This document shows, one piece after another, positions 37,303-53,897 of a DNA stretch of 64,000 nt. The stretch lies in assembly GCF_029360705.1 (NCBI RefSeq), contig NZ_JARKMX010000014.1, forward strand, positions 496,001-560,000, given 5' to 3'. Made by a program: the position numbers and the translations under genes. Each line of letters starts with the position of its first letter. Position 1 is the stretch's first letter. The notes under the pieces were generated by a model that ran no database searches, had not been told where the DNA came from, and saw nothing but the letters and a program-made list of their open reading frames with translations. The stretch comes from Paraflavitalea pollutisoli (GTDB taxonomy: Bacteria; Bacteroidota; Bacteroidia; Chitinophagales; Chitinophagaceae).

Positions 37303-37315
37303 GAACAATAAAAAT

Positions 37316-37513
37316 TTATGGTTGGACGCGAAAAGTAGGGGTTTCCTGCTGTAAACCCCGATGCCAATGCGATAATTTGTACCTGGCCGGGATGGGCGGC
37401 GAGGACCAGGCCCCCATCGCCATCCATAATAAATATTTACCATGCGCCAGGTAATCGGCAACATACACACCAAAAAAACCGGCGGACGCTTTCAAAGCAG
37501 CACGCCGGTTCAT
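37316..37513 (-). pseudogene. Small ORF with Tat-like start, possible gene remnant
   Basis: A 65-codon ORF between the FAD oxidoreductase and the peptidase begins MNRRAALKASAGFFGVYVA, a twin-arginine-like start followed by a short hydrophobic stretch. The rest has no recognisable domain and the ORF stops 13 bp before the peptidase start. Many Bacteroidota oxidoreductase subunits and DUF1501-type proteins begin this way, so this may be the 5' end of a lost gene. It could equally be a chance ORF. Confidence 0.3.
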
Positions 37514-37532: not shown

Positions 37533-39818
37533 CTAGCCATAACACCGTACCCCAAACAAAGCAGCAGGTACGTCGGCAGAAGGATGATCGAGTTCGATGA
37601 TCAGCTTTTCAACCGCCACCGGTTTCTCCAATTTGATCTTGTTATGGGTGCGGTAGTTGCCATTTACTGCAGCCAATAGCTGTCCCGATTCATTCTTGAT
37701 ACGATAATTCCTTACACAGAATGGCATCACGGTTTCCGGATGGTGCATCAGCACAGATTCCAGGGGATGATCATAGTCTGCATCAAAAAAAAGATCGATA
37801 CTATTGATGGTTTGAGGGGTGCCCCATCCGATGCTTAGCCTCGGATGAGGATCCTTCCAGTCTGCCACCCAGGCATTGGGGCGATCAGTAGGCCGATCGA
37901 TTCCATTGCGGATATTGTCGATTCCAAAAGCATTCAATGCAGCAGTGTATTTGAAAGCGATATTGTGCCCCTCCGGCCTGCGCTGCGGACACCAGAACTC
38001 GAAAGTATCCATACCGATATCTTCAGGTGGCGTCTGCTTGCCATAATTGGAAACTGCTTTGTTGATGGTATTGAAAACAGATAATATCCCTGTTACTCTT
38101 TTACTGGTATGATGCAACTGGACCAGCGGGTTCTTCATAATGGTCAGAAATGCATAACCTGGTTTTTCCATAACGGCGTCGAATGCGATCTGCAAACAAT
38201 TGCGGCCGGGTTGTATAGCAAGAACCTGCTTTGCCAGGCTGATATCCGGCGTGTGATTACCCTGCTTACTGCTGATGCGCAATTCTAGTTCCAGCTGCGT
38301 CTCGGTTTCCGATTGCACATGAATGACAAAGGGAGCTACTTCGCCAGCCTCCAGCGGTACCATTTGCGCAAGAGAAAGCGTCAGCGGCTTCAGAAAACCT
38401 TCTTCCGGCAGTTCCTGCAATACCAGTTCACTGCTCGCCTCGATGGTGGCGATCTGCACTTTATCAGCCTTGTCAACGAGGGCTAGTCCGGGAATATATT
38501 GACCTGTTTGCTGCAGGCGCTGTTGCAACGCGCCAATTCTGCCCTTTTGAATGATCTCCGCAGGCAACAGCCCTTCTTCTTTACACAGCGCAGCCGCCAT
38601 ACCTACGGCTTGCGAAGCATAAGCAGCGGTGGCCATTACCCGGGTAGAACCAAAAGCGACATGCGAAGCACTAATGATTCGCCCGCCCAGGAAAAGGTTG
38701 CTGATATTCCGGCTGTACAGGCAGCGATAAGGGATCTGGTAAATCCCTTTGGCGTGCCATTGGTTGCAACCGGGTTTTTCACTGAATACACCGTCGGCCG
38801 GGTGAAGATCGATACTCCAGCCACCAAAAGCTACCGCATCTTCATGCGTCCGTTGCTCAACGATATCCTGTTGTATCAGCATATAGTCGCCTTCAAACCG
38901 GCGGCTTTCCCGTTTGCCGGGGATCGTACCCACCCATTCGAGCGTGAGATTGGCCGCCTCCGGAAAGGCGCCTGAGTTTTTGATATGGTTCCATACGCCA
39001 TAGATCACTTTCCAAAGCTCCCATTTGATCTGTTCGGTATCGTGCACCGTGTCCAACCGTCCACCATACTCGATCCACCAAAGCTTACACCCAAACTCCT
39101 GTGCATTGAATGATTTGAAACGAGGTATCTGGGCAATATCCTTCAGTGCAAAGGCAGGCGGTACAAAATTGACCGGACGGCCCGTATCCTTACTATAGAA
39201 ATACAAAGTATGTCCGAGCAGTTCTCCGTATTCTTTCGTGGGCGCAAACAGCTCGCCAAACTCCTCCATACTTTCCGCCCCCATGCGAAAAGCAGCACCG
39301 GACAGGAAACCCACTACCCCATCGCCCGAAGCATCACAAAACAAGGGCGCAGACAACACATATTCTGTCTGGTTTTGACTGCAGAATGCTTTTACCGAGC
39401 TGATCTTGTCTGCACTTTCTTTCTCCACATCGTATACCGCCGTATTGAGCAATAACTTGATATTGGATTCATTGACTACTTTATCCAGCAACAGCATGTC
39501 CAGGATCACGGCATTACCTTCCGGATTGCGATACGTATTCTCCACCAGAATTTCATCGATCACACCACCTTCACGGGCCCAGCGGTTGTTATTGCCCATA
39601 TGCGAAGTGGCGCCCAGCACCCACAGCCGCACTTCACTGCTGCTGTTACCGCCCAATACGGGCCTGTCCTGTACAAGTACAACGGTGCAACCTTCCCGTG
39701 CAGCGGTAATTGCACAGCAAACACCGGAAAGACCTCCACCTACAACGACCAGGTCTGCCTGAATCTTTTTGTTCATCAACGAGCGCTTGTTTCCTGTACT
39801 GTTCTTATCTACTTTCAT
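37533..39818 (-). CDS. FAD-dependent oxidoreductase with C-terminal beta-sandwich
   Basis: 761-aa flavoprotein of the FAD_oxidored type. The Rossmann motif is ADLVVVGGGLSGVCCAITAA (about residues 22-41), followed by the GG-doublet and VLGGNSSSEVRLWVLGA. NLFLGGRIISASHVAFGSTRVM near residue 390 is typical of the C-terminal FAD contact in this family. From about 470 there are one or two beta-rich regions, ending with a discoidin-like segment (IDLFFDADYDHP...RNYRIKNESGQLL). There is no obvious signal peptide. It is the last gene of the GH97 transcription unit, 48 bp after the large unclassified protein, so oxidation of a released sugar or glycan is a reasonable guess. The substrate is unknown. 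Confidence 0.85.
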   Translation of the reverse strand: MKVDKNSTGNKRSLMNKKIQADLVVVGGGLSGVCCAITAAREGCTVVLVQDRPVLGGNSSSEVRLWVLGATSHMGNNNRWAREGGVIDEILVENTYRNPEGNAVILDMLLLDKVVNESNIKLLLNTAVYDVEKESADKISSVKAFCSQNQTEYVLSAPLFCDASGDGVVGFLSGAAFRMGAESMEEFGELFAPTKEYGELLGHTLYFYSKDTGRPVNFVPPAFALKDIAQIPRFKSFNAQEFGCKLWWIEYGGRLDTVHDTEQIKWELWKVIYGVWNHIKNSGAFPEAANLTLEWVGTIPGKRESRRFEGDYMLIQQDIVEQRTHEDAVAFGGWSIDLHPADGVFSEKPGCNQWHAKGIYQIPYRCLYSRNISNLFLGGRIISASHVAFGSTRVMATAAYASQAVGMAAALCKEEGLLPAEIIQKGRIGALQQRLQQTGQYIPGLALVDKADKVQIATIEASSELVLQELPEEGFLKPLTLSLAQMVPLEAGEVAPFVIHVQSETETQLELELRISSKQGNHTPDISLAKQVLAIQPGRNCLQIAFDAVMEKPGYAFLTIMKNPLVQLHHTSKRVTGILSVFNTINKAVSNYGKQTPPEDIGMDTFEFWCPQRRPEGHNIAFKYTAALNAFGIDNIRNGIDRPTDRPNAWVADWKDPHPRLSIGWGTPQTINSIDLFFDADYDHPLESVLMHHPETVMPFCVRNYRIKNESGQLLAAVNGNYRTHNKIKLEKPVAVEKLIIELDHPSADVPAALFGVRCYG

Positions 39819-39866: not shown

Positions 39867-42695
39867 TCATTTGCCCAGGGTTACCGTTTCCGTTTTCAGC
39901 GCTGAGCCATCTACGCCGGTCAGCGAGAGATAGAATTGTACGGTAGCTGCTTGTGCTGCCGGTACTGTAAATTCAAAAGGATAGGCAACATCATCGATCC
40001 TGACTTGCTCACCATCCGGTTTAGTACAAAACAAAGTGGCTTTGCTGAACTTATTATCGTCTGCTTCCAGGTACACGAATAACCTTCTGTCGTATTGACC
40101 GAGGCGTATCAGCATCGCATGAGTCCCGCCAGGCTTGAGTTTTACATAATCCCTTCCAGCTATTCCGTAATTCGAATTCAACAACGCCTGCTGAAATGAT
40201 GACCGGATAGCTGCGCCTTCGATGCGCACCGCTGTAAGGCCGTTGGCCGGCACCTGGATCTCGAAGCTGCCATCTTTGATGGCCTGCTGCCGCTGGCCGG
40301 TGAATGATTGCACCACACTCCCGTTTCGTAATTGCACACGGGCCGGATCGATACGCACGTTTGTCGTTACTGCTTTGGTCGATTGGTTGGCAAAGGCCAG
40401 GTAGAGCGTATTGCCTTTCCGGGCTGCGACATAATTCAACTCGTTACTGGCAATGTTCAGCAACCGGGCAGGCATCCACAACTGCACCTCCTTTTCCGAA
40501 TAAAAGGTTCCTTTTTGTGCACCATATAATTTGTTCTGCAGATAAGCATACCCTTCCATGTATTCCGACGGAAAATCGATCTGCCCCTTGCTGCGCACGA
40601 AAGCATCCGTCACCAGGTAGTCGAGCAACATACTCGCCATCGGTAGAATATGATTGTAATGAAATGAATTCACACTCTGCGCCTTGTGCTCATGCAGGGG
40701 AAAGTCAAGCTTTTCATAAGCGGTCGTTCGCTCCGTATTGATGTGATAACCCGGGAAATTACGGTAGCGGCCGATCATGGCTGCCTTGGCCACCTGCACC
40801 AGGAAACTGTCTTTGGCATAATAACCCAGCCGCAGCATCCAGGGTGCATAATTCGCCATGAAGATGCCACGGTGACCGGTAGAGGTGCCCGAAGACTCCG
40901 GTGTAAGGCCGATCTCCGAAAGCCGCCAGGCCGGCGCCTGTTCTTCCGGGTAGTACATTTGTGTATGCCCCTTTGACCGCAGGTACCAGTACATCGGTGC
41001 TTTACCGCCTTTGTTGACGGTAATCAGGCTATCCGGTATCGCCGGACTCATCCAGGTAAACATAGTATAGTTGCGTGCCCCTTCCCTGGCCGACTGCAGG
41101 TAACGGTCATTGCCCGTCAGTTCATACAATTGCAGGAACTCGATCCACCGACCGGTAAAAGTGGGCCAGAAGAAATAACCGGTTTGCATGGGATCATTGA
41201 AAGCAGTTTGTGGCTGATCGATCCGTTGTGCTATATAGCGGTCTGCACCAGCAACACTGGCCTGCAGGTATTTATTATCGCCGGTGGCTTTATACAACCA
41301 CATATCGCTGATCCAATTCCTGCCTACCTCTTTGTATTCCATATTGCGCACCCGCGTGGCATGGTATTCTTTTTCAGCCATGGCCAGGAAGAAAGGATTC
41401 TTTTTCCCAAACACTTCGTACAGGGCCAGCAATTCGGATATCGGTGCAATAGGTCCTTTCATTTTACGGCTGGGACTTTGGATCTTCTGCGTACTATCCA
41501 ACGCAAAAAGAAACTTCTCCCGGCTCAGCATAAACTCCATCAGGGGATATGCCCGCTTTTCAAACATCACCGAATCATCGCGCACGATCGCCAGCTCCAG
41601 CGGATTCAGGCTCGACACGTTCTTTACGGCGCCCGGGACATCGGTACTATAGGCACAGCCTTTAAGGCTGTCGATGAACCAGGCATAATGCGACAAGGAA
41701 TAATCCACCATATTGTCCAGCGCTGTATTCAGCGAAGCGATATCGTTTTGCCTGTAGTCCCGGAAACCGAAAACTGTTCTGGCCAGTTGCTCATAAGTCT
41801 GGTTGACCGTCATCGGCGACACGACCAGGTAACAACTGAAATCGAACGACTGGCCTGGCTCCATTTTCGATTGATAGCCCCCAGGCAACGGTGCATAGAT
41901 CTGTGGCTGCAATTGCTTTTGATCATTGACCAATGCCACACCAAACCGGCTATTGGGTAAGGTAGGCAGCGGTTGAAAAGGCAGTTCTTTGCTCGCCGCC
42001 AGTACGCCAATGGTATTGGCACCATCAAAAACCAGCGTCGATGGCAGGGGCGCCATAAAGGCCGGTGTACAATAGGCAGCGTCCGGAATACGCTTTTCCT
42101 GCCAGATCAGCGGTTGCCAGATACCAGCTGCCTGGTCAGGCGTAAAGGAAGGAGCGCCCGTGTATCCCACGCTGTAATAACCGGGTTTATGAGGCTTGAA
42201 AGAAAAATGCAAAGAAGGGTACGGACCTTTTTCTAACAGGTACGCGGTTAAAGTAAAATCTCCGGTAGCGGGGAATAGAAAAAATATTGTGTCCTGTACT
42301 AGTTGAAAGCCTGTAGCCATCAATACCGTACGATCACCGGCATGATATATATTAGCGGTCCTGCCTTCAGCTTTCGTACGCAGGATCCGGTCATCGAAAC
42401 CATCACCCGCCATGGCAGCACCAACCTTTTTCTGTTTGAAATCATTCCGGCTGCTGTCACTCACTTTCCAGGTGAGTACATTGTATTCTACTTTTTGTAA
42501 TCCGGCCGGCTTCAATGCCATTCCCGGATCGGTTGCATTATAGAGAATGGTAAATCCCGGTAAGAAACGATAGTCTTTTTTCCCGCTTTTGATGATCAGG
42601 TCTTTCTTACCCACGACCACCTGTGCCCGCAACATAATAGCCGGGACATGGGCGACAAGCAATAGCAGGCAATAGCTCAACAATCTTCCTTTCAT
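39867..42695 (-). CDS. Large exported protein, unclassified glycan-active candidate (paralogue 1 of 3)
   Basis: 942-aa exported protein that I cannot place in a named family. A signal peptide (1-24) is followed by a beta-rich half (about 30-310). A helical region (about 320-720) has hairpin units such as DMWLYKATGDNKYLQASVAG and LQLYELTGNDRYLQSAREGA, the LYxxTGDxxYLxxA pattern of alpha/alpha-toroid glycosidases and lyases. The conserved core shared with the two paralogues includes YAPWMLRLGYY, AKAAMIGRYRNFPGY and LDYLVTDAFVRSKGQIDFP (about 690-708). A beta C-terminus follows. It starts 6 bp after GH97, so the two are translated from one mRNA. A glycan-cleaving role is inferred from fold and context only; no catalytic residue can be named. 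Confidence 0.8.
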   Translation of the reverse strand: MKGRLLSYCLLLLVAHVPAIMLRAQVVVGKKDLIIKSGKKDYRFLPGFTILYNATDPGMALKPAGLQKVEYNVLTWKVSDSSRNDFKQKKVGAAMAGDGFDDRILRTKAEGRTANIYHAGDRTVLMATGFQLVQDTIFFLFPATGDFTLTAYLLEKGPYPSLHFSFKPHKPGYYSVGYTGAPSFTPDQAAGIWQPLIWQEKRIPDAAYCTPAFMAPLPSTLVFDGANTIGVLAASKELPFQPLPTLPNSRFGVALVNDQKQLQPQIYAPLPGGYQSKMEPGQSFDFSCYLVVSPMTVNQTYEQLARTVFGFRDYRQNDIASLNTALDNMVDYSLSHYAWFIDSLKGCAYSTDVPGAVKNVSSLNPLELAIVRDDSVMFEKRAYPLMEFMLSREKFLFALDSTQKIQSPSRKMKGPIAPISELLALYEVFGKKNPFFLAMAEKEYHATRVRNMEYKEVGRNWISDMWLYKATGDNKYLQASVAGADRYIAQRIDQPQTAFNDPMQTGYFFWPTFTGRWIEFLQLYELTGNDRYLQSAREGARNYTMFTWMSPAIPDSLITVNKGGKAPMYWYLRSKGHTQMYYPEEQAPAWRLSEIGLTPESSGTSTGHRGIFMANYAPWMLRLGYYAKDSFLVQVAKAAMIGRYRNFPGYHINTERTTAYEKLDFPLHEHKAQSVNSFHYNHILPMASMLLDYLVTDAFVRSKGQIDFPSEYMEGYAYLQNKLYGAQKGTFYSEKEVQLWMPARLLNIASNELNYVAARKGNTLYLAFANQSTKAVTTNVRIDPARVQLRNGSVVQSFTGQRQQAIKDGSFEIQVPANGLTAVRIEGAAIRSSFQQALLNSNYGIAGRDYVKLKPGGTHAMLIRLGQYDRRLFVYLEADDNKFSKATLFCTKPDGEQVRIDDVAYPFEFTVPAAQAATVQFYLSLTGVDGSALKTETVTLGK

Positions 42696-42701
42696 AACAG
42701 A

Positions 42702-44567
42702 TCACTGCTTTATTTGGATCACCAGACCACCGTTGGCCGGCAGGTTGAATGACGATACTGTATTCTTATTGGGTAGCTGCTTTGCGCGCATAAACCCTTT
42801 CCCGTCTGCCGCATCGGTGATCACCGTTACCTTGCCCTTTACCGGGCTTCCGGCAAAAGCCGGGTTTAGCTGAAAGGGCATTTCCCGGTCAGTGCCATTG
42901 ATCACCGCGACATACCAGGTATTACCCTTGCGGCGTGCGAAGGCCGCACAAGTGCCGATATCACTGCCAGGCAGCACAATGGTACTGTCCCAGGTAGTGG
43001 GCAATGTATTAAGCAAAGGCAGGATAGGTTTGTATACCGGTTGCCGTAGTAATTCCACCGGATTTTCTGCAATGCACTGAAACGGCGAGTCGAAGAGGTA
43101 CAACAACGCCAGTTGATGGGTATAGGTGGTATTGGCCCGGTTACTGAAGAAGGCGGGCGTATAGTCGCCATGGCCGCATAATAACCGGGTGAACGGCAAC
43201 GCCGCATTGTGCCAGGCGGGGATAGGCTCGTTCATGATATTGAGTTCCATACCGCGGATCCCCTCGCGGGTGAGCTCATTGGGATAGGTTGTGCTTTCAC
43301 CGGTAGGTGCCTGACAGCCATGGAAATTCACCAGCAATTTTCTGGCGGCGCAAGCCCGTAGCAGCCCGATCTCAAAATCGATGAAGCCCTTGTCTTCACT
43401 GTTCATGAAATCGGTTTTGATGCCCACTGCCCCACTGCGGCGGATGCTATCGAGAAAAAGGTTTCGCAGCACGGTATCCAGCAGGTCTTTGCTGTGCTTC
43501 CATACCCATACCCCTACCTGCTTGTTAGCAGCATAGCGGCTGAGTGAAGTCAGCTCTGCCCACTTATCGGTCCACTTTGTTTCCCAGCCTTCATCGATCA
43601 GGGTATATTGGAAACGGAGCTTCGCCGCTGCATCGACGAAGCGCCTTTCCTCGGCAGGCTGCATATAATTTTCTTCGTTGCGCGAGATCCAGCTCCACAC
43701 AGAAACACCAGGCTTGATCCACGAGCGATCGGCAAAAAGTGTAGCATCGGGAGCGGGATTCAATAACGGAATAACTTTGTTATTGACCAGCTCATCGAGG
43801 TTCTTCGCAAACAGGATCACCCGCCAGGGCGTCGATAATTTTTCGCGCACGGTAAAGCCAGCCTCTCCCTCTGTAAAATTCACCTGTACTGTATTGTCAC
43901 CGACAGCCTTCAGGCGCATACCACTGTAGCCGTACAATGCCGCTTCGGTTACCACCATGTATTTATTGTCCGGCAATGCTGCTACCAGGGGTTTCCCTTG
44001 TATCGGCCCCTCTGAGGAGACCGTAGGCAACTTATCGGGCGTTGTTTGCTGCCAAAGACCGGCATAAGATTTCAGTTTCCAGTTGCTGTTCCTTTCAAAA
44101 TACCAGATACGCGCCTGATCGGGAAATTGAAACGTGGTCAGTTCCTCCTGCACCCGAACGGGTTGCACTCCTGCAGGCCGATAACGGAACGCAAAGCCAT
44201 TATCGAACAAACGGAAGGTAACTGTGTCGGTCGCTTCCTGTTGGCGTACCAACACCACGTATTCAATACTATGACTATTTACGGGCCGTTCACCCAGCCC
44301 AATTAATCTCACCTCACGCATATCCTGCCTGCGGTGAAGCCTGATATCCGACACTTGGGTTCCAACGCTTCTTCCATCTGCCACGATACCGAGGGTTGCC
44401 TGTTTCACCAGTACGACATCACCCGCCTTCAAATGATAGCTGAGTTTTCCGTGAGCAAGGTAGAGTTCTGCTTGCAGGGATTGATGAGGACTGGTCAGCC
44501 GGATCGGCTCACCGGCCATAGAAAGGCCAGCCAGACATACGAGGACTATGGTAAGCAATACGCGCAT
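42702..44567 (-). CDS. Glycoside hydrolase family 97, retaining-type motif
   Basis: 621-aa exported enzyme: signal peptide 1-18, N-terminal beta-super-sandwich (about 25-270), (beta/alpha)8 barrel (about 285-540) and C-terminal beta domain. Family GH97 is clear from WSWISRNEEN (about 291-300), LIDEGWETKW and YPNELTREGIRGMELN. GH97 has inverting alpha-glucosidases (SusB type, glutamate base) and retaining alpha-galactosidases with an aspartate nucleophile. Here Asp386 in GIKTDFM and Glu441 are 55 residues apart, the same spacing as the nucleophile and acid/base I recall for the retaining BT1871 enzyme. Alpha-galactosidase activity is therefore the best guess. It is first in its unit, behind one of the two palindromic operators. 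Confidence 0.9.
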   Translation of the reverse strand: MRVLLTIVLVCLAGLSMAGEPIRLTSPHQSLQAELYLAHGKLSYHLKAGDVVLVKQATLGIVADGRSVGTQVSDIRLHRRQDMREVRLIGLGERPVNSHSIEYVVLVRQQEATDTVTFRLFDNGFAFRYRPAGVQPVRVQEELTTFQFPDQARIWYFERNSNWKLKSYAGLWQQTTPDKLPTVSSEGPIQGKPLVAALPDNKYMVVTEAALYGYSGMRLKAVGDNTVQVNFTEGEAGFTVREKLSTPWRVILFAKNLDELVNNKVIPLLNPAPDATLFADRSWIKPGVSVWSWISRNEENYMQPAEERRFVDAAAKLRFQYTLIDEGWETKWTDKWAELTSLSRYAANKQVGVWVWKHSKDLLDTVLRNLFLDSIRRSGAVGIKTDFMNSEDKGFIDFEIGLLRACAARKLLVNFHGCQAPTGESTTYPNELTREGIRGMELNIMNEPIPAWHNAALPFTRLLCGHGDYTPAFFSNRANTTYTHQLALLYLFDSPFQCIAENPVELLRQPVYKPILPLLNTLPTTWDSTIVLPGSDIGTCAAFARRKGNTWYVAVINGTDREMPFQLNPAFAGSPVKGKVTVITDAADGKGFMRAKQLPNKNTVSSFNLPANGGLVIQIKQ

Positions 44568-44580
44568 AAGTAACAGGTTT

Positions 44581-44588
44581 CAAATTTA
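44581..44588 (-). promoter_or_regulatory. Candidate -7 box for the GH97 unit
   Basis: Minus-strand TAAATTTG (44588-44581) matches TANNTTTG exactly, but the -33 position has no TTTG and the implied leader is only a few bases, so it is tentative. Confidence 0.3.
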
Positions 44589-44607
44589 GTCACGACCATG
44601 TTTTGCC

Positions 44608-44625
44608 TATAGCGTCTACGCTATA
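44608..44625. promoter_or_regulatory. 18-bp palindrome between operator and GH97 start
   Basis: TATAGCG at 44608-44614 and CGCTATA at 44619-44625 form a perfect inverted repeat with a 4-bp centre, covering the expected -33 region of the GH97 promoter. No copy was seen in front of susC. It could be a second regulator site or simply an RNA hairpin. Confidence 0.4.
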
Positions 44626-44634
44626 AAATCAGGC

Positions 44635-44667
44635 TGGGAACATTCCCAATTCATGGGAATGTTCCCA
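44635..44667. promoter_or_regulatory. Palindromic operator copy 2 (GH97 promoter)
   Basis: Arms TGGGAACATTCCC (44635-44647) and GGGAATGTTCCCA (44655-44667) are perfect reverse complements around the spacer AATTCAT. Each arm is itself a near-palindrome (GGGAA-N2-TTCCC). It lies entirely in the 103-bp gap between the SGNH stop and the GH97 start, its near edge 67 bp before the GH97 ATG. The same 33-bp element occurs at 59780 beside the lacI gene. Confidence 0.85.
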
Positions 44668-44670
44668 TAG

Positions 44671-46101
44671 TTACCGGTTCCCGTTCACGGGTTGTAAAGG
44701 TTTACCGTTCAGTAATATTTTGCCGAGGTAGAAGACTGTCCTGTCATAGCGGCCGGGGTTGGCCGTAATATCCTGTAGTTGCTTTTCACCCAGTATAGCC
44801 CGCTTATCAGCCTTATCCGCAGAGATGCGCACCGTAACCGTATGTTCACCCGGCGCGAGCCGGATGCAGTCAAACTGGCCCCGGTAGCGGTTATTACAGA
44901 AGCTGTTAAACCGATTAAGGTATGCAGTCCCACCATCTCTGATGGCGGACACCCTTGTACCTGGCAGTACGCCCGATATCTGCACCGGACGACCATCCAC
45001 TTCAATTGCCAATTGACCCACTTCAGGGCCACCGATATCGAAGAAGCCAAAGAGGTCGCCGGAGAACCGGAACGTAAATCCAGCGCCGGGTCGTTCTCCT
45101 TTCAAGAGGTAAGGGAACCAACCTTTGAAAGAGTTTAGATAGCTACTGTCTGCCGGATCGATCTTTTGCCAGTCCCCTTCAAACCGGGCAATGGATTCCG
45201 GGGCATACATGCCGGCGGCTTCCCAGTTACCGGCGATTACCGGAACAGGCAATCCATGTTGCAACTGCCCGGCAGTAGATTGCATGCGCTGCATACTGCG
45301 CGCAATAGCGCCTGCATAGAGATCGCCGCCTGCTGACAACGGATGGATCCCATCCACCGAAAAAATCGTTTTTCCCGGTATGGACCGACTATCCGATTTC
45401 CAGACCAGCTTATCTTCCTGCTCCAGCATAGCTGGCTGCATACCCAAATGAATAGCCGGTATGCCGTAGTGTGCTGCAATCGAATCAAAACCAGCTATAT
45501 TATCCGGCACTTTACCGGCTGCGTAGAACGCAGTCTGCCCATTGAACAATGTATAGAGCAGGCAGATGTCGATGGTGGGATCTTCACGGCGGATCTGCCG
45601 GATCATACCTTCCAGTCCATCCCGGTAAGCGCCATTTACCGCAAATTCGATAAACACCAGGTCGGGCCGGTATTGCAGCAACTGTTCCCACAACCGGCAG
45701 GCACCCAAATCTGTGCCGGTACCCGACACGCCTGCATTGATCGCCTTCATAGGTGTGCGCGGATACATCGACTGGATAAACCGGGCACTACCGGCCCGAT
45801 AGCCCTGCACCGCCTGGGTGATGCTGCCACCGATATAGCCGATGGTCACTGCTTTCCCGGCAGCTGCCTTCTTAAAAAAATTAGGTAGTCCATCACGTAC
45901 GGTACATTCCTGTACATTATCGAACGGCAATGGCGTTATCACCCGCACTTCCCTGGCACCGGGGTCAAAGAACAAGGGCGAAGCGCCGGATTGCGAGGCC
46001 GCAATCAATTTATCCCTGCTTTCATCGCTGGTCTTATTCACCTGTGCGCAGGCAACGCTGCCCATCACTAATATAGCCATTATGGAACAACAGATCCGCA
46101 T
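44671..46101 (-). CDS. SGNH/GDSL hydrolase (probable carbohydrate esterase)
   Basis: 476-aa exported esterase-like protein: signal peptide 1-19 (ending VACAQ). An SGNH domain (about 65-275) has block I GYIGGSITQ with nucleophile Ser93, block II NAGVSGTGTD (Gly127), block III EFAVNG with Asn156, and block V VDGIHP with Asp250 and His253. The C-terminal half (about 290-470) is beta-rich, possibly a carbohydrate-binding jelly roll. In a PUL such enzymes usually remove acetyl or other ester groups so that glycosidases can act. It starts 9 bp after the 1133-aa protein gene and is the last gene of the susC-led unit, just before the second operator. Confidence 0.88.
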   Translation of the reverse strand: MRICCSIMAILVMGSVACAQVNKTSDESRDKLIAASQSGASPLFFDPGAREVRVITPLPFDNVQECTVRDGLPNFFKKAAAGKAVTIGYIGGSITQAVQGYRAGSARFIQSMYPRTPMKAINAGVSGTGTDLGACRLWEQLLQYRPDLVFIEFAVNGAYRDGLEGMIRQIRREDPTIDICLLYTLFNGQTAFYAAGKVPDNIAGFDSIAAHYGIPAIHLGMQPAMLEQEDKLVWKSDSRSIPGKTIFSVDGIHPLSAGGDLYAGAIARSMQRMQSTAGQLQHGLPVPVIAGNWEAAGMYAPESIARFEGDWQKIDPADSSYLNSFKGWFPYLLKGERPGAGFTFRFSGDLFGFFDIGGPEVGQLAIEVDGRPVQISGVLPGTRVSAIRDGGTAYLNRFNSFCNNRYRGQFDCIRLAPGEHTVTVRISADKADKRAILGEKQLQDITANPGRYDRTVFYLGKILLNGKPLQPVNGNR

Positions 46102-46110
46102 AAGTATAGT

Positions 46111-49100
46111 CTATTCAAATTGTATGTTGGTGGTCGTTAGTTTTCCATCACTGCCCTTTAACTGCAGTTTCCCTGTCAGCGGTTTGCCAGCCGGCAATTT
46201 ATAGACCGACCATTCATACGGGTAACTATCCTTACTCACCTGTGTGCCTGCTAGGGAAAAACTTATACTGGCACCGTCAACAGGTCCCGCTTCCAGGTAA
46301 CCATATATAGAATCCCAGCCAAAAGGCGACCGGATCCTGAACACATAACATTTACCGTAGGGCGCGCCCAGATCGATCACTTGCATGCCGTGCTGAACGG
46401 GTGCCTGCACTGCGGGTTTGTTGGTTGCCTTCAATGGAACCGATAAGGCCACCATTCCTTTGGCCGGCACGGATATTTCCATGGCGCGGTTCTTCAATGG
46501 AATAGGCTCTTGTTTACTGCCATCAACGTGTTGCAATACCGCAGGGCCCGTAGCTGCCACAGGCACTTCCACGCCAAGCGAGATATCCGCCGTTTGTCGC
46601 TCCGCCCCTTCATTCATCACCAGTATCCAGAAACGATCATCGGATATAGCCGTTACATAATTAAAGCCAGGTCGGTCAATCGTCACAAGGCCACGTTTCA
46701 TCCAGAGACTGGCAGCCTGGTCACCAAACACCGTTCCCTTGCCGGCACCAAAAGCCCTGTTGTTGAACCACACGAATCCATCCTGCTTACCGAAGGGGAA
46801 TTGCACTTTTCCATTCGACCGCGTGATCGCTTCCGTAATGAGGTAATCAAGGGTGAATGCCAGGTGCGGCGGAATATGGTGGTAATAGATCGAGCTTACA
46901 TCTGGTCCTTTATACGGAAAGTCTTTGGAGTGCGTAATATCTGTAAAGCCGGAAGCATAATACCCAGGATAGGTCGAGAAACGTCCTATAACTGCGTTTC
47001 GTGCATAGGTGAGGAAGATCTTTTGCTGACTGTACTGGTGCAGCCTTAACAGGTGCGGTGCCCAACTGCTCATGAAGACAGGCCTTACGGTTTTACCCGC
47101 ATCGAAATACGTGAAAGGCTGTTCAAAGCCCAGGCCTACCGGCGACACCAGCCATTGCGGCACCTGCTTTTCCGGCGCATCGCCCTTCACCCGGGGAAAG
47201 CCCAGGCGGTATCTTTTATCGCCTTTCCACCACAAGGTAGTATTGCCTTCGTATTGATTGCCCGGGTGAATAACCTGCAGGGTATCCTTTACCTGGGGAT
47301 ACGAGCGTATACCCGCCACGGTGTGATAGGCAGATGATTCGGCGGCCTCCAGAAATCTTTTCTCCTGCGTCGCCTCATAAATGTCGATCATGTCCCACCA
47401 ATAGGCATAAAAAGAAGTATTGTAGAAAGGTTCTCTCGACAGTGGCTTCGTAATGGCCCCATTAACCTGTAATGCAATAAACCGGTCTGCACTCACCTTC
47501 GCTTTATTGAGCCACTGCTGGTCACCGGTAAGCCGCCAGGCGGCCAGTTCCTGCGTGTAGGTCGGCACTTCCACGGAGTACCCTTTTGCAGGCCGTATCG
47601 CTCCACCTGGCAAAGCGATCTCCCTTAACCAGGGGTTTGCCTCACCCAGCAAACGATTCAACCCTTCGTAGTAGTTGGTGGTAAATTGTGATCCAAAGGG
47701 ACTCAGTTGTAGAGACTTTTTATCACTGTTGAATGGGGTGCCGGACACCGCTTTAGCCCAGCGAAATCCACTGCGCGATAAGGTATATTCAATGGTAGGC
47801 AAAGCGCGTTTGAGGTAGAAGTCTTCGTCTTTGGTCATCACTGCCACCGATACCAGGGTGAGTGGCGAAGCATGTACCACCGTCGGCACAACAGCAGGAT
47901 TGGCCTCGATATCATAAAAGCCTTTCAGTCCCGCATCCCAACCTGCCGCCGAATCGTTCTTCATCAGCTCCACCATATTGAAAGCTGTTTCCGTCAGCGA
48001 AGTATTATCCTGTTTACGATAATCAGTCACGCGGTAGATGCTGTCCGATACATAGGTCAACACCTCGTTCCATCCTGTGGCGAAAGCACCGATGGCAAAC
48101 TCCCGCTTTAAAATACTTCCCGCCGTCAGTTTAGAATCCGGCTGACCAAGGATGGGTGAAAAGGCTACTGGCTGCACGCGGTTGCTTTCATTTTTTACGG
48201 TAAACCCAAGGGGGCCGTTGGCACTGCCCCAGTCATTGGGCGCAAAGCTGCGCGCCAGGCCGCTGGCAAACGTGCTGACTAGTCCCCATTCAGTTCTCAT
48301 CTCGGCAATCGACACCGGCTGCGGCATCATCCCGGATGGTACCATCACCGGTTGAGGAGACAAGCGCTGGTACTGGAACATGGGTGGCAACAATATATTG
48401 GTGGCGCTATCGGCTGCTATGCTTTGGAAGGCAGCCAGCCCCATACTGTAATAACCAGCAAGCTGTGGTTTATATTGCAGGTTCACTTCCACATGTCTCG
48501 CCCCGGGCGCCAATGACCAGGTACCTGTCAGAATCGGTTCCCCGGCCACGGTATAGTTTACTTCGATCGTTTGTGCATTCAACTGCTTTGCCGCCACCGG
48601 TATGGCTTCCGTCACCTGACCGGCAAAGAAAGGATTGAGGATAACATCCGTTTCCAGGATGGAGTATTTATGGCCGTTATTCTCAAATGAGGTGAGTCCG
48701 GTACTACCATTCCAGGAGGGAAAGAAATTGCCAAAGCCGAGCTGCGGATCGTCGGCCCGAATGATATACACTTTATGGTCTTCCCGCTTCGCATCCATAC
48801 TGCCCCACTTACCTTGTATGCGGATATCCGTTTTAGCCACCAGCCGTTTTGTTTCGCTGCCCGTTGCCGGCATGAACCGTACGCGCACCTCATCGTTTTG
48901 GATCGATGCTACAGGTGGTCGCACACCGCTGGCCAGTGCCGCAGATAGCTGGGGAAATTGCACCGGTGTTGGCTGCACGACCACCGGCTTCACCCGCAGA
49001 CTCGTCAGTGTCGATAGCGGCTGCGCATTGGGATCAAAACCATCGGCCGCTGAGAGGATGATCGCATCACAGCGTCCGAAATTACCCCGGCTGTCATTGA

Positions 49101-49512
49101 GCCTGAGCACTGCATTGCCTGCCGGCAATGTCACCGTTCCTGCTTGCTCCCAATAGAATCCCGGTTTACCATGCCTGCCCGATTCCTCTGGCATAATTTG
49201 ATCGTTCACCGAAAGCCTGAACAACCTGGTGCCTGGCCGGTCGTTTGGATAATCGGCCGCCCGAACCCATACCTGGTAATTGCCTGCCTGTTTCACAGCT
49301 ACTACAGTCAATGCATCGACCGCTTTGGTCTTGCCAGACATAACACGCAGAATACTGTTGTTGAAAAATCCTTTACCTCCCTCCCGCTCTACCACCCAGC
49401 CACCTTTGAACTGGAAGTCTTCTGCTTCAATGAGGTATTGAGCCTGTTGGCCACGGGCTATGGCAGCGCCCAACAAGCAACTGATGAAGAACAAAACACG
49501 CAGGTTTTGCAT
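46111..49512 (-). CDS. Large exported protein with N-terminal carbohydrate-binding-like domain, unclassified (paralogue 2 of 3)
   Basis: 1133-aa exported protein, largest of three paralogues. A signal peptide (1-21) is followed by a CBM-like beta-sandwich at about 24-160, recognisable by YLIEAEDFQFKGGW, AGNYQVWVRA and LRLNDSRGNFGRCDAIILS. A beta-rich segment (about 190-530) precedes helical hairpins (about 590-900; LAAWRLTGDQQWLNKAKVSA and MIDIYEATQEKRFLEAAESS). The core shared with the other two is WAPHLLRLHQYS, ARNAVIGRFSTYPGYY and LDYLITEAITRSNGKVQFP (about 886-905). A beta C-terminus ends the protein. The family is not known to me; the layout suggests a polysaccharide lyase or glycosidase. 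The genes on both sides are 33 and 9 bp away. Confidence 0.8.
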   Translation of the reverse strand: MQNLRVLFFISCLLGAAIARGQQAQYLIEAEDFQFKGGWVVEREGGKGFFNNSILRVMSGKTKAVDALTVVAVKQAGNYQVWVRAADYPNDRPGTRLFRLSVNDQIMPEESGRHGKPGFYWEQAGTVTLPAGNAVLRLNDSRGNFGRCDAIILSAADGFDPNAQPLSTLTSLRVKPVVVQPTPVQFPQLSAALASGVRPPVASIQNDEVRVRFMPATGSETKRLVAKTDIRIQGKWGSMDAKREDHKVYIIRADDPQLGFGNFFPSWNGSTGLTSFENNGHKYSILETDVILNPFFAGQVTEAIPVAAKQLNAQTIEVNYTVAGEPILTGTWSLAPGARHVEVNLQYKPQLAGYYSMGLAAFQSIAADSATNILLPPMFQYQRLSPQPVMVPSGMMPQPVSIAEMRTEWGLVSTFASGLARSFAPNDWGSANGPLGFTVKNESNRVQPVAFSPILGQPDSKLTAGSILKREFAIGAFATGWNEVLTYVSDSIYRVTDYRKQDNTSLTETAFNMVELMKNDSAAGWDAGLKGFYDIEANPAVVPTVVHASPLTLVSVAVMTKDEDFYLKRALPTIEYTLSRSGFRWAKAVSGTPFNSDKKSLQLSPFGSQFTTNYYEGLNRLLGEANPWLREIALPGGAIRPAKGYSVEVPTYTQELAAWRLTGDQQWLNKAKVSADRFIALQVNGAITKPLSREPFYNTSFYAYWWDMIDIYEATQEKRFLEAAESSAYHTVAGIRSYPQVKDTLQVIHPGNQYEGNTTLWWKGDKRYRLGFPRVKGDAPEKQVPQWLVSPVGLGFEQPFTYFDAGKTVRPVFMSSWAPHLLRLHQYSQQKIFLTYARNAVIGRFSTYPGYYASGFTDITHSKDFPYKGPDVSSIYYHHIPPHLAFTLDYLITEAITRSNGKVQFPFGKQDGFVWFNNRAFGAGKGTVFGDQAASLWMKRGLVTIDRPGFNYVTAISDDRFWILVMNEGAERQTADISLGVEVPVAATGPAVLQHVDGSKQEPIPLKNRAMEISVPAKGMVALSVPLKATNKPAVQAPVQHGMQVIDLGAPYGKCYVFRIRSPFGWDSIYGYLEAGPVDGASISFSLAGTQVSKDSYPYEWSVYKLPAGKPLTGKLQLKGSDGKLTTTNIQFE

Positions 49513-49545
49513 AATACAATTTTGAAGGGTTTTCTACTACACGGA

Positions 49546-52158
49546 TCACCAGGCGATCTCGATCACCTGCATACCATAAGCGGGGATGGACAGCTTCCAT
49601 CGGTCACCGGTTGGCAACGTTGATCGCCGGCCATCGGCATCCCGCAGGTGAACTGCCCCGTGACGGATACGGTCGTTATTCAGTATCTTATTGTAATCGA
49701 CGGTTATCGTTGTTGCCAGTAGATCGTCATCATTATTCAGCAACAGCAAGAAGAGTTTTCGTTGCGTCGTATCGATGGCACCGAAATAGTCCAGATAGGG
49801 GCTATCTGTCTGCAACATGCCTTGCTTCAGCAGCAAAGATGCTGATTGACCATACACCTTACCAGGCTTGAAGCCATAGCTCTGGTGTGGGCCTACCTTG
49901 GGCGTGATCCATCCGCGAGGGAAACTCACCTGGCCTTTTGAACGCAGCGACGCTTCCGACAGCAGGTAATCCGTGATCCAGCCGATCTGCCACCAGGCGT
50001 GATGCGGATACGGCCCCGCTCCCCGGTTCATGACATCCCAATAGTAAGACGCTACGCTGGTCGACGAGTCGACAAAAGCATCGCGTCCCAACGCTGCGGC
50101 ACGCGCCATTGTCAGGAACAGGGAATCTTGGGTGAGGGAAAACATACGTACGAAAAGCCCGGCATGACTAGCGAGTAATATCGGCCCACGTAAGGTGGCA
50201 GAACCAAAGCTGCCGCCGTGTTCGAAACTGAGGCCCACCTGACTGATCTCCCAATCGCGCCGGGGTACACCGCGTACCGATTTCTGTAATTGGGAAGGTA
50301 TGGGATGCGTATACACACTGGTGGTATACAATTGAGCTGTTCTGATGGCCGCATCCTGGTGACGTTTATCTTTTGTGATAGCGTACAGATCAAGCAAAGC
50401 CTGTGCACTCTGTCCCGTTGCAAAGTCGGGGGCGAACCGCGTATCGCCACACACGCCGGTAAAATGCCCTTTATCGACCGCATGGGTCATAAACCATTCT
50501 GCTCCTTTGATAGCGCCCTGCAGGTATTTTTGATCGCCCAACAATTTATAAGCGATCAACAAACCATAGAAAGTGGGCCGCAGGTCTTCCAGGTCGGTAA
50601 ACATAGGCTGTTGCGTGGCATGATCGTAGGCCACCGCCCAACGGCCTTCGGGGCTCATCCAGTTTAGTAATTTGTCGGCTGCCATCCGCACTTCACGACG
50701 CATGGCTGTATCATTGGGCTCAAACAACAATATATTGCCGGCATCCATCAACACATAATACGTGGTACCGATGGGCTCCACATAAGGTCCCCACTCTTCC
50801 GTAAATTTTTTCTTCGTAGGCAGGTAATATTGACCGGCAGCCGAACCGTAGAAGAAGCCCGCCACCGTATCTTGTTGGGTGAGTTTAAAATTGCGCGCAT
50901 AGGGAAGTCTGGTGGCCTGCAATACCGGATCGCCGGAAATACGGGCCAGCATCCACATCGCGCCATAGTCTGCATTCTTGATGGCAAAGCCATCGCCGCC
51001 ATGCACACCACCGCGGTAATCCTGCGCGCCGATGGTCAGTCCGCGGTATTGTTCGGTCCTCCATTTGGAGGTACTGTCGTCGATCACATACTGGTGCATC
51101 CGTTGAATGCGATCGGTGAGGGAATGACCGGCCTGTTTCAAAGACAAAAAATCCTTTAGCCGGTACACATCATTCGCGGCATGTTTATATACATTGTACC
51201 AATTGTCAGCCTTGATGGTATACCGGAAAGAAAAACGAACAGTATCACCCTTTTTCAGCCAGGATCCTTTTTCACCCAATATGGGATGCCAGGCCATAGG
51301 CGTCAATTGGGCTGCCCTGTTCATAACAGACAATCCCAACTGCCAGGTGTTTTGTGTACTATGGTCCGTCTCCCAGGGGTCGCGGCTGGTGCCGGGTTCC
51401 GGGATAACGGCGAAGGTGATGCCTTGTTTATTGGTAACGAGTGGTGATAATGTACTCGCCGTCCTTTCACGGGTCACTACCGGCAAGGCAGGTATGCCTT
51501 GTCCATATCCATAAGATTTTACCAGGTTCATTTCGATCGCGCTGCCCTGAAAATGTCCGGGCACCATGGCCCAGGCAAGGTCCTTTTCCGCCGTAGTGGC
51601 GAGTGTGGGCGATGCCAGGGAAAAGAAACCATCAGCTTTGGCCTGCAATACAAGGTCGACCAGGATATCGCTGCCGTAGGCAGCATCCATACGCCAGGTG
51701 GCTGTCACCGTTGCCTTGTCCAGTTGCTGACTGAACTGCAACTGCTTGCCCACCTGCTTCATTTGCGCAGGATAGAATCCTGCCGCCTCGCCGGACTTAT
51801 TGAGCGCCACGGGTAGCAAGGTCTGCTTCCAGGGCGGCAGGATATAGCGGTATTGCGGCTCCGGTATATCAATCAGTTTTCCTTGTTCATCATATACTTT
51901 GGCCGGCACCGTATCGGGCCTGGCGGCGGTATACAGGAACATATACTCGCCACTAAGGCCCGGCAGCAATAGCCATTTGTTGCCTTGCTTCACCGCCAGC
52001 TTTTGCAAACGCCACCCTGCCTCAGACTGCTGCCATTCTACCTGCAAAGCAGAAGAGGACAAGCTCGCTTTATCAGCCTTTGTTGGCTGTGCTGCCGCAG
52101 TAACAGAGCACACAACAGCCGTACAAATAGCCACTATATTTTGGGGGAGGATATTCAT
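49546..52158 (-). CDS. Large exported protein, unclassified glycan-active candidate (paralogue 3 of 3)
   Basis: 870-aa exported protein with signal peptide 1-23, a beta-rich N-terminal half (about 35-330) and a helical half (about 340-750). The helical hairpins LLIAYKLLGDQKYLQGAIKGA and LLDLYAITKDKRHQDAAIRTA are toroid-like. Conserved core positions match the other two paralogues: HAGLFVRMFSL, ARAAALGRD and TDYLLSEASLRSKGQVSFP (about 728-746), then GKVYGQSASLLLKQGML. It is the most diverged of the three. Its start codon overlaps the symporter stop (ATGA at 52158-52155), so translation is coupled to sugar import. The enzyme class is unassigned. Confidence 0.8.
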   Translation of the reverse strand: MNILPQNIVAICTAVVCSVTAAAQPTKADKASLSSSALQVEWQQSEAGWRLQKLAVKQGNKWLLLPGLSGEYMFLYTAARPDTVPAKVYDEQGKLIDIPEPQYRYILPPWKQTLLPVALNKSGEAAGFYPAQMKQVGKQLQFSQQLDKATVTATWRMDAAYGSDILVDLVLQAKADGFFSLASPTLATTAEKDLAWAMVPGHFQGSAIEMNLVKSYGYGQGIPALPVVTRERTASTLSPLVTNKQGITFAVIPEPGTSRDPWETDHSTQNTWQLGLSVMNRAAQLTPMAWHPILGEKGSWLKKGDTVRFSFRYTIKADNWYNVYKHAANDVYRLKDFLSLKQAGHSLTDRIQRMHQYVIDDSTSKWRTEQYRGLTIGAQDYRGGVHGGDGFAIKNADYGAMWMLARISGDPVLQATRLPYARNFKLTQQDTVAGFFYGSAAGQYYLPTKKKFTEEWGPYVEPIGTTYYVLMDAGNILLFEPNDTAMRREVRMAADKLLNWMSPEGRWAVAYDHATQQPMFTDLEDLRPTFYGLLIAYKLLGDQKYLQGAIKGAEWFMTHAVDKGHFTGVCGDTRFAPDFATGQSAQALLDLYAITKDKRHQDAAIRTAQLYTTSVYTHPIPSQLQKSVRGVPRRDWEISQVGLSFEHGGSFGSATLRGPILLASHAGLFVRMFSLTQDSLFLTMARAAALGRDAFVDSSTSVASYYWDVMNRGAGPYPHHAWWQIGWITDYLLSEASLRSKGQVSFPRGWITPKVGPHQSYGFKPGKVYGQSASLLLKQGMLQTDSPYLDYFGAIDTTQRKLFLLLLNNDDDLLATTITVDYNKILNNDRIRHGAVHLRDADGRRSTLPTGDRWKLSIPAYGMQVIEIAW

Positions 52159-53897
52159 GCCTGTTCAGATTGAGTATAGGTAGCAGGCGATGGCTTCATG
52201 CCATTGGTATGCTGCGGTATTTTAGCTTTAATGGCTGCGCGGAAGGGAATGATCGCACTCAACAGGATCAACAACGCAATAACGGCCACAAGGCCAGATC
52301 CTGCCGTCGTAAGCAGGCTTAGCGCAAGCAACAGTACCGCAATGAAGGCCAGTGCAAAGGCGATCACCCGCAAGCCGAACCTATTCTGCTTTTTCACCTC
52401 CAGTGCTTCTTCTTCATTCACTTGTTGCGCATTTGCCTTGCGTTGCGCTTTGCCGGTAAGGTAGGCGTCGTATTCCGGGCTTACCTTATTGGCAGAACGC
52501 ATATACCACTCCCAGGCAGCCAGCATCATAAACGGCAGGCCTACACCCAATACCATTTCCGCACCGCGGCTGAGTTTGAAACCTAGGGTCAGCGGCAGGA
52601 TCATTTTAAAGACCAGGTTTACCGCCAGACTAGTCAGGGTGATCGACAAGGTGGCTTTTCCCGTGAGGCGTTTAGAGAACAGTGCCCAGATAGGCGGGGC
52701 CAGCAGCGGACCGCCTGTTATGGCGCCGATGCTCAGCGTAAACTCTACGATGCCGCCGATATACGGAACAATGAGTGCAATGCCGATCATACCCAACCCA
52801 AATAACCAGGAGGAGATCCGCGCCACCCGCATCAATTGACTATCGGAAGCACCGGGATTGATGCTGCCTTTATAAATATCGTTGGTGAATACTGCCGATA
52901 CCACATTCAACGCGGTATTGGCAGATGCAGAGGTTGAGAAATACATGCCCGTCAGGATCAAACCCATAAGGCCCGCAGGCAACACATGTTTGCAGATCAT
53001 CAGGTAGGCATTCTCAGTATCGAGTCCGGTCAATCCCGGATTGATGGTTTTGTACACCATCGGCGGCAACATCCAAAGAATGGGGCTGATCAGGTACAAG
53101 CCTGCAAAAAGAAAAGCCACCTTAGAGGCCGACTTAGGTTTGTCAACACTGGTATAGCGTTGCACAAAAGTCCAGTTACCACCGATATAGAAAATATGGT
53201 AGAGTGCGAAAGCCAGGATAAAACCCCAGGTATATTCACCATTCACTACCTGGAAAAAGCGGTCGGGCGCTTTCTGCAGGAACTGTTCTACGCCACCCGC
53301 CGCATCGAATGCCAATGGCATGATGATAAGGATAGCGGCTGTCAGGATAACGAATTGCAGGATATCGGTGACCATGACCGCCCAAAGTCCCCCCACGGCC
53401 GTATAAGCGATCATGAACAAACCGAGCACAATGGTAGTAGGCAGCAACGGAAAGCCGAGCGAAGACCCTACCAGTTTGGCCACGGAATACAATACAGATC
53501 CCTTGATGAAAAGGGACACCAGCATAAAGATGTAGATATAACTTTTCTGCACCCGCTCCCCCAGCCTTTCACGGATAAATTCGGCAGCCGTGAGGTTGCC
53601 CGTTGCCTTCCACCGGGGCGCCAGGTAAAGCCCTGTAATGAGGCCGCCTATGCACATGGTCCACTGGATGGTAATGGCCACCCAACCATGCTGATAGGCT
53701 ATGGAGCCCCACGCAACGAAAGTGCCGGCAGAAAAAAAGCTCATGAAAAGCGATAAGCCACCGATCGTCCAGGGAACGGCTTCGCCACCGGCAAAAAATG
53801 ACTTCAGGTTCCTGCCGGTACGGGCAAACAGGAACCCGATCAGCATGATGAAGACGGAGAAGACAACGATGACAGCGGTATCGATGGTTGAGTGCAT
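52155..53897 (-). CDS. Sodium:solute symporter (SSS family)
   Basis: 580-aa inner-membrane transporter with about 13-14 TM helices. SSS-family landmarks are FFAGGEAVPWTIGGLSLFMS and FSAGTFVAWGSIAYQ in the first third, with GLWAVMVTDILQFVILTAAI and GLILTGMYFSTSASANTALN further on. A charged loop near 490-520 precedes the last helices. Within the PUL it should import the mono- or disaccharide made in the periplasm, driven by sodium. It lies 27 bp after the DUF5017 gene and overlaps the next gene by 4 bp. Confidence 0.93.
   Translation of the reverse strand: MHSTIDTAVIVVFSVFIMLIGFLFARTGRNLKSFFAGGEAVPWTIGGLSLFMSFFSAGTFVAWGSIAYQHGWVAITIQWTMCIGGLITGLYLAPRWKATGNLTAAEFIRERLGERVQKSYIYIFMLVSLFIKGSVLYSVAKLVGSSLGFPLLPTTIVLGLFMIAYTAVGGLWAVMVTDILQFVILTAAILIIMPLAFDAAGGVEQFLQKAPDRFFQVVNGEYTWGFILAFALYHIFYIGGNWTFVQRYTSVDKPKSASKVAFLFAGLYLISPILWMLPPMVYKTINPGLTGLDTENAYLMICKHVLPAGLMGLILTGMYFSTSASANTALNVVSAVFTNDIYKGSINPGASDSQLMRVARISSWLFGLGMIGIALIVPYIGGIVEFTLSIGAITGGPLLAPPIWALFSKRLTGKATLSITLTSLAVNLVFKMILPLTLGFKLSRGAEMVLGVGLPFMMLAAWEWYMRSANKVSPEYDAYLTGKAQRKANAQQVNEEEALEVKKQNRFGLRVIAFALAFIAVLLLALSLLTTAGSGLVAVIALLILLSAIIPFRAAIKAKIPQHTNGMKPSPATYTQSEQA

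Follow-up and report, generated by a model that had tools for sequence, protein, structure and literature searches.

Three divergent paralogues at a polysaccharide utilization locus of Paraflavitalea pollutisoli as a candidate new family of six-hairpin enzymes

A 64-kb window of the Paraflavitalea pollutisoli genome (contig NZ_JARKMX010000014.1, positions 496,001 to 560,000) was examined, in which three large paralogous proteins, labelled here P1, P2 and P3, are encoded on the minus strand. We consider it fairly probable that these proteins are three old subfamilies of one new six-hairpin family, that they cleave a galactose-rich glycan in the periplasm, and that they work with a pathway formed by a symporter and a flavoenzyme. 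P1 (39867..42695, 942 amino acids, aa) has an N-terminal beta-sandwich, an (alpha/alpha)6 toroid at about aa 315-701 and C-terminal beta domains. P2 (46111..49512, 1133 aa) is a paralogue of P1 and P3 with an additional N-terminal domain, and the paralogue P3 (49546..52158, 870 aa) lacks the last of the C-terminal beta domains. The toroids of P1 (40593..41753) and P3 (49942..51120) were located in AlphaFold2 models, and that of P2 (46819..48018) by alignment only. All three N-termini were signal-peptide-like when read by eye, and the proteins look exported.

The paralogy had been proposed in a preliminary description of the window, and BLASTP confirmed it far beyond chance (E values from 1e-71 to 2e-18). 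P1 and P2 were 26% identical over 864 columns (E = 1e-71), P2 and P3 25% identical (E = 2e-31), and P1 and P3 22% identical (E = 2e-18). A search of the same genome with P1 at E ≤ 0.001 returned P1, P2 and P3 alone. The three motifs quoted in that description were found in every protein: APWMLRL, APHLLRL and HAGLFVRM for the first, AKAAMIGR, ARNAVIGR and ARAAALGR for the second, and DYLVTDAFVRSKGQIDFP, DYLITEAITRSNGKVQFP and DYLLSEASLRSKGQVSFP for the third. The carbohydrate-binding-like domain that it assigned to the N-terminus of P2 was real as an extra stretch of sequence (about aa 24-170; 49003..49443, minus strand), but no Pfam model named it. Its start, EAEDF, resembles that of CBM6/35-like domains, so that we presume a carbohydrate-binding nature. 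Similar stretches (26-32% identity) precede flavin adenine dinucleotide (FAD) domains in related loci. The domain is a feature of one P2 branch, and the relatives in L015, L016 and L018 (964-970 aa) lacked it in the alignment.

The same description had left the three proteins without a family and suggested that they may be new. No Pfam model reached its cut-off for P1, P2 or P3, and NCBIfam gave no match. Against PDB sequences nothing significant was found, with no match for two of the proteins and two globin matches at E = 1.6 for the third. Pfam, NCBIfam and PDB sequences thus yielded no characterised family to which all three could be matched with confidence. The suggestion held in this respect, but relatives of the proteins touched the glycoside hydrolase (GH) families GH127 and GH88, which places them in the wider six-hairpin world. 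For GH127 (PF07944, cut-off 24.9 bits), P1 scored 21.3 bits and P3 16.2 bits, and P2 gave no match. For GH88 (PF07470, cut-off 26.6 bits), P3 scored 16.6 bits over 84 residues, and P1 and P2 gave no match. An alignment of 39 rows was then used, made of 36 loci and the three window proteins; out of 40 loci, it omitted L041-L043, with matches of about 70-135 residues, and L014, with broken reading frames. Among these 39 relatives, GH127 was matched at E ≤ 0.01 by 21 (best 3e-7) and GH88 by 14 (best 1.2e-7). Judged from scored pairs, the best of these relatives should probably exceed the Pfam cut-offs.

The values given by hhalign were 75-79% against GH127 proteins of the same genome (74-80 columns, seven proteins) and 69-77% against its GH88 proteins (82-83 columns, five proteins). 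With a yardstick of 90% for GH127 against GH88, these 69-79% place the P proteins in the six-hairpin world, about as far from its families as two of these are from each other. Kinship by profile was rejected for heparinase II/III-type proteins (PF07940; 2-3%, three proteins) and for GH95 (3-8%, five proteins). GH65 (PF03632) had no match in this genome.

These partial matches could also mean that P1-P3 are divergent members of existing six-hairpin families of the GH127/GH88 type that escape current models, which we regard as quite improbable. GH127, exemplified by the beta-L-arabinofuranosidase HypBA1, has toroid hairpins in common with the P proteins and gave the best Foldseek E value of P1. 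However, the family matches with listed extent spanned just about 75-130 residues, and the domain order differs, with the beta-sandwich coming first in P. GH127 chemistry is understood to require a conserved catalytic cysteine, and the P family has no family-wide cysteine (the best column of the 39-row alignment has cysteine in 16 of 35 letters). Full GH127 membership was rejected on the sub-cut-off score, the cysteine and the domain order. Cysteine is a trait of P3, where C570 lies in a GVCGD stretch with an invariant cysteine in 15 of 15 rows of that subfamily. One structure title among the Foldseek matches of P1 mentions cysteine-directed inhibitors. The GH88/GH105 unsaturated uronyl hydrolases share hairpin similarity with the 14 relatives mentioned above; unlike these enzymes, P carries beta domains on both sides of its toroid, and the matches covered about 80 residues where listed.

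With a profile of the 39 relatives, 30 PDB sequences were matched at E ≤ 10, the best at 3e-8; most matches spanned about 70-100 positions of toroid proteins, including GH76-type mannanases and GH88-type enzymes. Two weak matches in this search were an exopolygalacturonate lyase (E = 0.075) and a cellobiose 2-epimerase (E = 0.33). The latter bears on the idea that P1-P3 do not cleave at all and are sugar epimerases, isomerases or binding proteins of the toroid class. Weak matches to the D-glucuronyl C5-epimerase C-terminus in 7 of the 39 relatives (E ≤ 0.01, best 6.4e-6) point the same way. The epimerase-model match of P3, however, covered 33 residues, and three paralogues adjoining a GH97 enzyme and an esterase argue for bond-breaking steps. 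A non-cleaving role is therefore regarded as very improbable.

Confident AlphaFold2 models were obtained for P1 (predicted local distance difference test score, pLDDT, 83.5; predicted template modelling score, pTM, 0.89) and P3 (pLDDT 88.0, pTM 0.90). Both models showed an N-terminal beta-sandwich, about twelve toroid helices and a C-terminal beta domain, which bears out for P1 and P3 the beta-rich N-terminal half and toroid-like hairpins expected from the sequence. P1, and P2 by alignment, had an additional strand stretch that was missing from P3. A beta-sandwich, a toroid and C-terminal beta structure form the layout of the GH15, GH65, GH94 and GH95 glycosidases and phosphorylases. The P1 and P3 models had this layout, with low template modelling scores (TM-scores). 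The nine best Foldseek matches of P3 were of this type (E = 1.1e-9 to 1.7e-7). They included dextran dextrinase (1.1e-9), chitobiose phosphorylase (4.7e-9), GH65 enzymes (5.5e-9; human PGGHG 5.5e-8), cellobiose phosphorylase (3.3e-8) and the 1,2-alpha-L-fucosidase of GH95 (8.3e-8). Unlike these enzymes, P1, P2 and P3 matched no GH15, GH65, GH94 or GH95 model in Pfam or NCBIfam, and none of these models was among the 15 Pfam families matched by the 39 relatives at E ≤ 0.01. The best Foldseek matches of P1 were GH127 (9.3e-7) and polysaccharide lyase (PL) family PL27 (1.1e-5). A search of a viral structure library gave weak matches, the best being a GH95-type viral protein (1.2e-5).

Six polar residues were invariant in all 39 rows: E600, R643, Y650, H682, D692 and R701 in P1 numbering. 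The equivalents of the first four were E646, R692, Y705 and H720 in P3, and E797, R844, Y851 and H879 in P2. By the secondary structure of the P1 model, E600 lies in a long loop ahead of helix 616-627, R643 and Y650 lie in a loop ahead of helix 680-701, and H682 starts that helix. D692 and R701 lie along this last toroid helix. By helix alternation, E600, R643, Y650 and H682 would be on one face of the toroid. The putative catalytic centre is most likely on this long-loop face, around E600, Arg643, Tyr650 and His682, and we infer a cleft and catalysis for P1-P3. In GH15, GH65, GH94 and GH95, the catalytic acid pair lies in the loops of helices 5-6 and 11-12. No acid column of the P alignment spanned all subfamilies in the helix 5-6 loop, and other acids were common only within subfamilies.

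The invariant Glu/Arg/Tyr/His set allows both a toroid lyase and a hydrolase, the latter either with a second acid specific to each subfamily or with an unusual mechanism. Invariant Tyr, His, Arg and Glu with a single loop acid are typical of toroid lyases, and the P family has one invariant acid in its loops. P1-P3 may accordingly be lyases of a new PL family with the layout of PL27; in beta-elimination, Tyr650 and His682 would act as acid and base, and Arg643 and Glu600 would neutralise the uronate. The most collinear enzyme match of P1 was the PL27 L-rhamnose-alpha-1,4-D-glucuronate lyase BACCELL_00875 of Bacteroides (5no8; E = 1.4e-5, TM-score by target 0.38), whose root mean square deviation (rmsd) was 10, compared with 22-27 for the GH127 rows. 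In the accessible part of its description, this enzyme has an N-terminal beta-sandwich followed by an (alpha/alpha)6 barrel, the same first two domains as P1 (PMC8377490). The pectic acid lyase model PF09492 (PL10) was touched by two of the 39 relatives (best E = 0.0017), and the three window proteins did not match it. On the other side, PL27 was absent among the 30 PDB sequence matches of the profile, and no structure named as a lyase was among the top 50 Foldseek matches listed for P3. Unlike PL27, the P proteins carry extra C-terminal beta domains, and the locus gives no sign of uronate chemistry. No GH88/GH105 gene was present at the locus, the GH88 matches of the genome lay elsewhere, and none was found in the ten recurrent neighbour clusters scanned. 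We therefore consider lyase activity rather unlikely, yet a serious alternative to glycosidase activity.

For the hydrolase side, an atypical mechanism has been reported for toroid beta-1,2-glucanases. According to the accessible part of PMC12102758, the enzymes of clan GH-S (GH144, GH162, GH192-194) are (alpha/alpha)6 barrels with a clan-wide Glu and Tyr and an atypical reaction geometry, and most have a single barrel domain. The P proteins differ from these in being multi-domain. The GH144 structure 5z06 was a Foldseek match of P1 at 4e-3 and was not a PDB sequence match of the profile. We lean towards P1-P3 as exo-acting glycosidases on a galactose-rich, acylated heteroglycan.

In a tree of 59 rows, P1, P2 and P3 fell in separate groups on long stems. 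This tree was midpoint-rooted, and the program warns that long branches may join falsely. Support was 100/100 for P3 with a Humibacter row, 100/98 for P1 with L013 and L024, and 100/99 for Bacteroidota P2, which changed to 94/73 once Lentisphaerota, actinobacterial and Paenibacillus rows were included. Among the 37 related loci L004-L040, several of which are short contigs, P1, P2 and P3 occurred together in six (L014 with broken frames, L005 with P3 cut at the edge), P1 and P2 in one short contig, P2 and P3 in five, and P1 and P3 in three. P3 alone was found in 15 loci, a P2-like protein alone in four and a P1-like protein alone in three. Since the tree groups are separate and the combinations vary elsewhere, P1, P2 and P3 are old, modular lineages and not a local burst. 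Recent local triplication was rejected on the same grounds.

The P family was also present in contigs labelled with phyla other than Bacteroidota. Two Paenibacillus loci (L023 and L026) encoded P2-like proteins of 1903 and 2004 aa together with ABC-transporter genes, as found by clustering with scanned genes. Their GH97 proteins were 45% (L023) and 43% (L026) identical to the GH97 of the window, and L026 additionally contained a GDSL gene (26%) and a GLAA-B-type beta-helix protein. As further observations on these loci, L013, a contig labelled Williamsia (Actinomycetota), contained SusC/SusD and LacI matches and is possibly a wrongly binned Bacteroidota contig. In Chitinophaga sp. E66, whose orthologous locus is L014, each of the six genes with more than one match was broken into many frames, which may reflect sequencing error rather than decay. 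In L024 (9701-13276), a P1-like protein of Niastella was fused to a C-terminal GDSL domain.

The P genes were frequently accompanied by a gene for an FAD-dependent oxidoreductase (PF12831 in Pfam; 37533..39818, minus strand in the window), which has about 320 aa past its FAD domain. Within the fetched flanks of L004-L040, a match to this flavoprotein was found in 29 of the 37 loci, a match to the sodium:solute symporter (SSF) in 26 and a GDSL match in 17. Identity of the flavoprotein was at least 50% in 27 loci and 38-39% in L027 and L040. Four of the eight loci without a flavoprotein (L009, L012, L032, L035) were short contigs or started at a contig end. The window flavoprotein was 50-73% identical to 17 orthologues chosen for alignment, and against PDB at E ≤ 0.001 it had no match past the dinucleotide-binding stretch.

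Genome counts were made for 394 Chitinophagaceae genomes, including that of P. pollutisoli. The P family was found in 40 genomes (15 of 101 genera) and the flavoprotein in 51 (21 of 101 genera). Both were present in 38 genomes, on one contig in 36 of these, at most 9.9 kb apart and with a median gap of 170 bp. The two genomes with P only were G536 (84% complete; its P is a 153-position fragment at a contig edge, kept in the count of 40) and G715 (99% complete, in 130 contigs, with each of its two P matches at the start of a contig). In a draw of 395 genomes from the phylum, again with the same genome included, a long P match was found in four, with 15 of the 19 P-match genomes left uncounted (68-135-position hairpin matches). 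A full-length flavoprotein was found in six, with two of eight genomes not counted as orthologues (partial 41-44% matches). All four long-P genomes were among these six.

Several observations weigh against our preferred reading of P1-P3 as a new cleaving family tied to this flavoenzyme. On the models, the fold match of P1 and P3 is one of layout, without a close full-length match, because TM-scores did not exceed 0.41 and most rmsd values were above 15 among the best 50 rows listed per model. The Foldseek list of P3 also contained enzymes with a barrel other than a toroid, GH97 among them, and the beta-sandwich may account for part of its structural signal. E600 was the single invariant acid in the presumed cleft, with D692 placed mid-helix, and the alignment shows no ordinary hydrolase pair across the whole family. 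The co-occurrence of P and flavoprotein had a hypergeometric value of 2.7e-39, a figure that takes no account of common descent, and in most rows of the genome search only two candidates were scored for each genome. Outside Bacteroidota, four P2 relatives (L019, L021, L023, L026) had no FAD match in their flanks. Furthermore, the flavoprotein occurred without P in 13 of its 51 Chitinophagaceae genomes. Fourteen such stretches were inspected (L075, L076, L100-L111; 13 from Chitinophagaceae and one from another family). By scan or clustering, 11 of them contained GH2, GH29, GH95, GH43, GH97, sulfatase or acetylesterase (SASA) genes, and L100, L102 and L109 contained none of these. The flavoprotein is not specific to P, because it was found without P beside GH2, GH29, GH95, GH43 or sulfatase genes.

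The preliminary label of the locus as a polysaccharide utilization locus (PUL) was borne out by a SusC/SusD pair, exported carbohydrate-active enzymes (CAZymes) and a regulator. The minus-strand genes run from about 59.7 to 35.7 kb in the order SusC (56507..59716), SusD (54842..56485), a DUF5017 protein (53925..55025, Pfam), the SSF symporter (52155..53897, Pfam and NCBIfam), P3, P2, a GDSL esterase/acylhydrolase (44671..46101, Pfam), GH97 (42702..44567, Pfam and PDB sequence matches), P1, the PF12831 flavoprotein and an M28 peptidase (35731..37473, Pfam), the last gene of the unit. The DUF5017 protein is probably a surface lipoprotein with its true start at an internal ATG. The N-terminus of the flavoprotein was not signal-peptide-like when read by eye. 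The M28 peptidase had no match in the 37 related loci. A LacI-family regulator (59854..60867, plus strand) is divergently oriented. A beta-helix protein (60911..62578, minus strand) is not part of the operon; it scored 35.7 bits with the GH28 model (cut-off 22.9) over part of the model only, and was 21% identical to the GLAA-B-type protein of L026 (496 columns, E = 9e-13).

The best PDB sequence matches of the window GH97 were alpha-galactosidases, one of them named as retaining. It keeps the DFM and EG(I/V)xGxE stretches of alpha-galactosidases with known structure, which we take to hold the catalytic residues. This GH97 and the GLAA-B-type neighbour suggest alpha-galactoside-bearing glycans.

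The two operator-controlled units proposed earlier were also confirmed. Tandem operator-like inverted repeats were located ahead of SusC (59780..59813) and ahead of the GH97-P1-FAD unit (44635..44668), so that P3 and P2 belong to one unit and P1 to the other. Both are near-identical tandem repeats of 34 bases (TGGGAACATTCCCA...GGGAATGTTCCCAT). An exact-match search of the 8.76-Mb genome placed the pattern at these two positions only, and such a repeat arose in 0 of 100 shuffles of the sequence. A looser form matched 7 of 111 loci, two of which were the window's own DNA (L002, L044); the remaining five were L004, L006, L078 and L005 with its copy L079. In L004-L006 it preceded GH97-P1 or P1 genes, and in L078 it sat, by position, between SusC and LacI. 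Because matching repeats stand ahead of both units, P2/P3 and P1 probably form one regulon, and the LacI protein presumably binds the repeats.

In the proposed pathway, SusC and SusD would import an oligosaccharide, which P3, P2, GH97, the GDSL esterase and P1 would break down at different bonds. The SSF (Na+) symporter would then carry the freed sugar into the cytoplasm, where the PF12831 flavoenzyme would oxidise it. The LacI repressor, with the two tandem operators, would switch both transcription units. Both the direction of this pathway and its substrate are inferred. A more specific proposal is that P1-P3 are a new CAZyme family that cleaves glycosidic bonds without the usual carboxylate pair, using a Glu/Arg/Tyr/His centre, and that they act together with the flavoenzyme and the SSF symporter in a redox-coupled pathway of glycan use. 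The sugar would be freed outside and flavin-oxidised inside before metabolism, and outside too where Spirosomataceae loci have ApbE together with FAD enzymes that are exported. We regard this proposal as unlikely.

Five Spirosomataceae loci (L033, L034, L036, L038, L039) contained a second FAD enzyme of 600-686 aa and an uncharacterised gene of 311-408 aa, and an ApbE-type gene was present in four of the five. The second FAD enzyme looks exported in some of them (a Tat-like N-terminus in L039), and in L036 and L038 it has a domain resembling the N-terminus of P2. Elsewhere in the window, a further SusC/SusD pair is encoded at 8665-17308 and 17401-18507, along with FecR and a large protein of the FG-GAP/UnbV type. 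The 1142-aa product of 22229-25657 combines ThuA, sorbosone dehydrogenase, PKD and cytochrome c domains.

In the accessible portions of the open PMC literature, nothing was found on the P family or on PF12831 enzymes of PULs, and the accessible portion of PMC11892949 mentions neither an oxidoreductase nor GH97. A new family of glycan-cutting enzymes is plausible. The three-branch family of large exported proteins occurs in about one in ten of the Chitinophagaceae genomes (40 of the 394 drawn), and the libraries searched gave it neither a name nor a structure or activity. The accompanying flavoenzyme is named in Pfam, but solved structures match it in the nucleotide-binding stretch only. The frequent company of this flavoprotein and the symporter is the most informative addition to the preliminary description, and the GH, sulfatase and esterase genes of the flavoprotein loci without P offer a lead to the flavoprotein substrate. 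If the preferred reading is true, a CAZyme family and a flavin-dependent step would be added to the use of galactose-rich glycans by soil and gut Bacteroidota.

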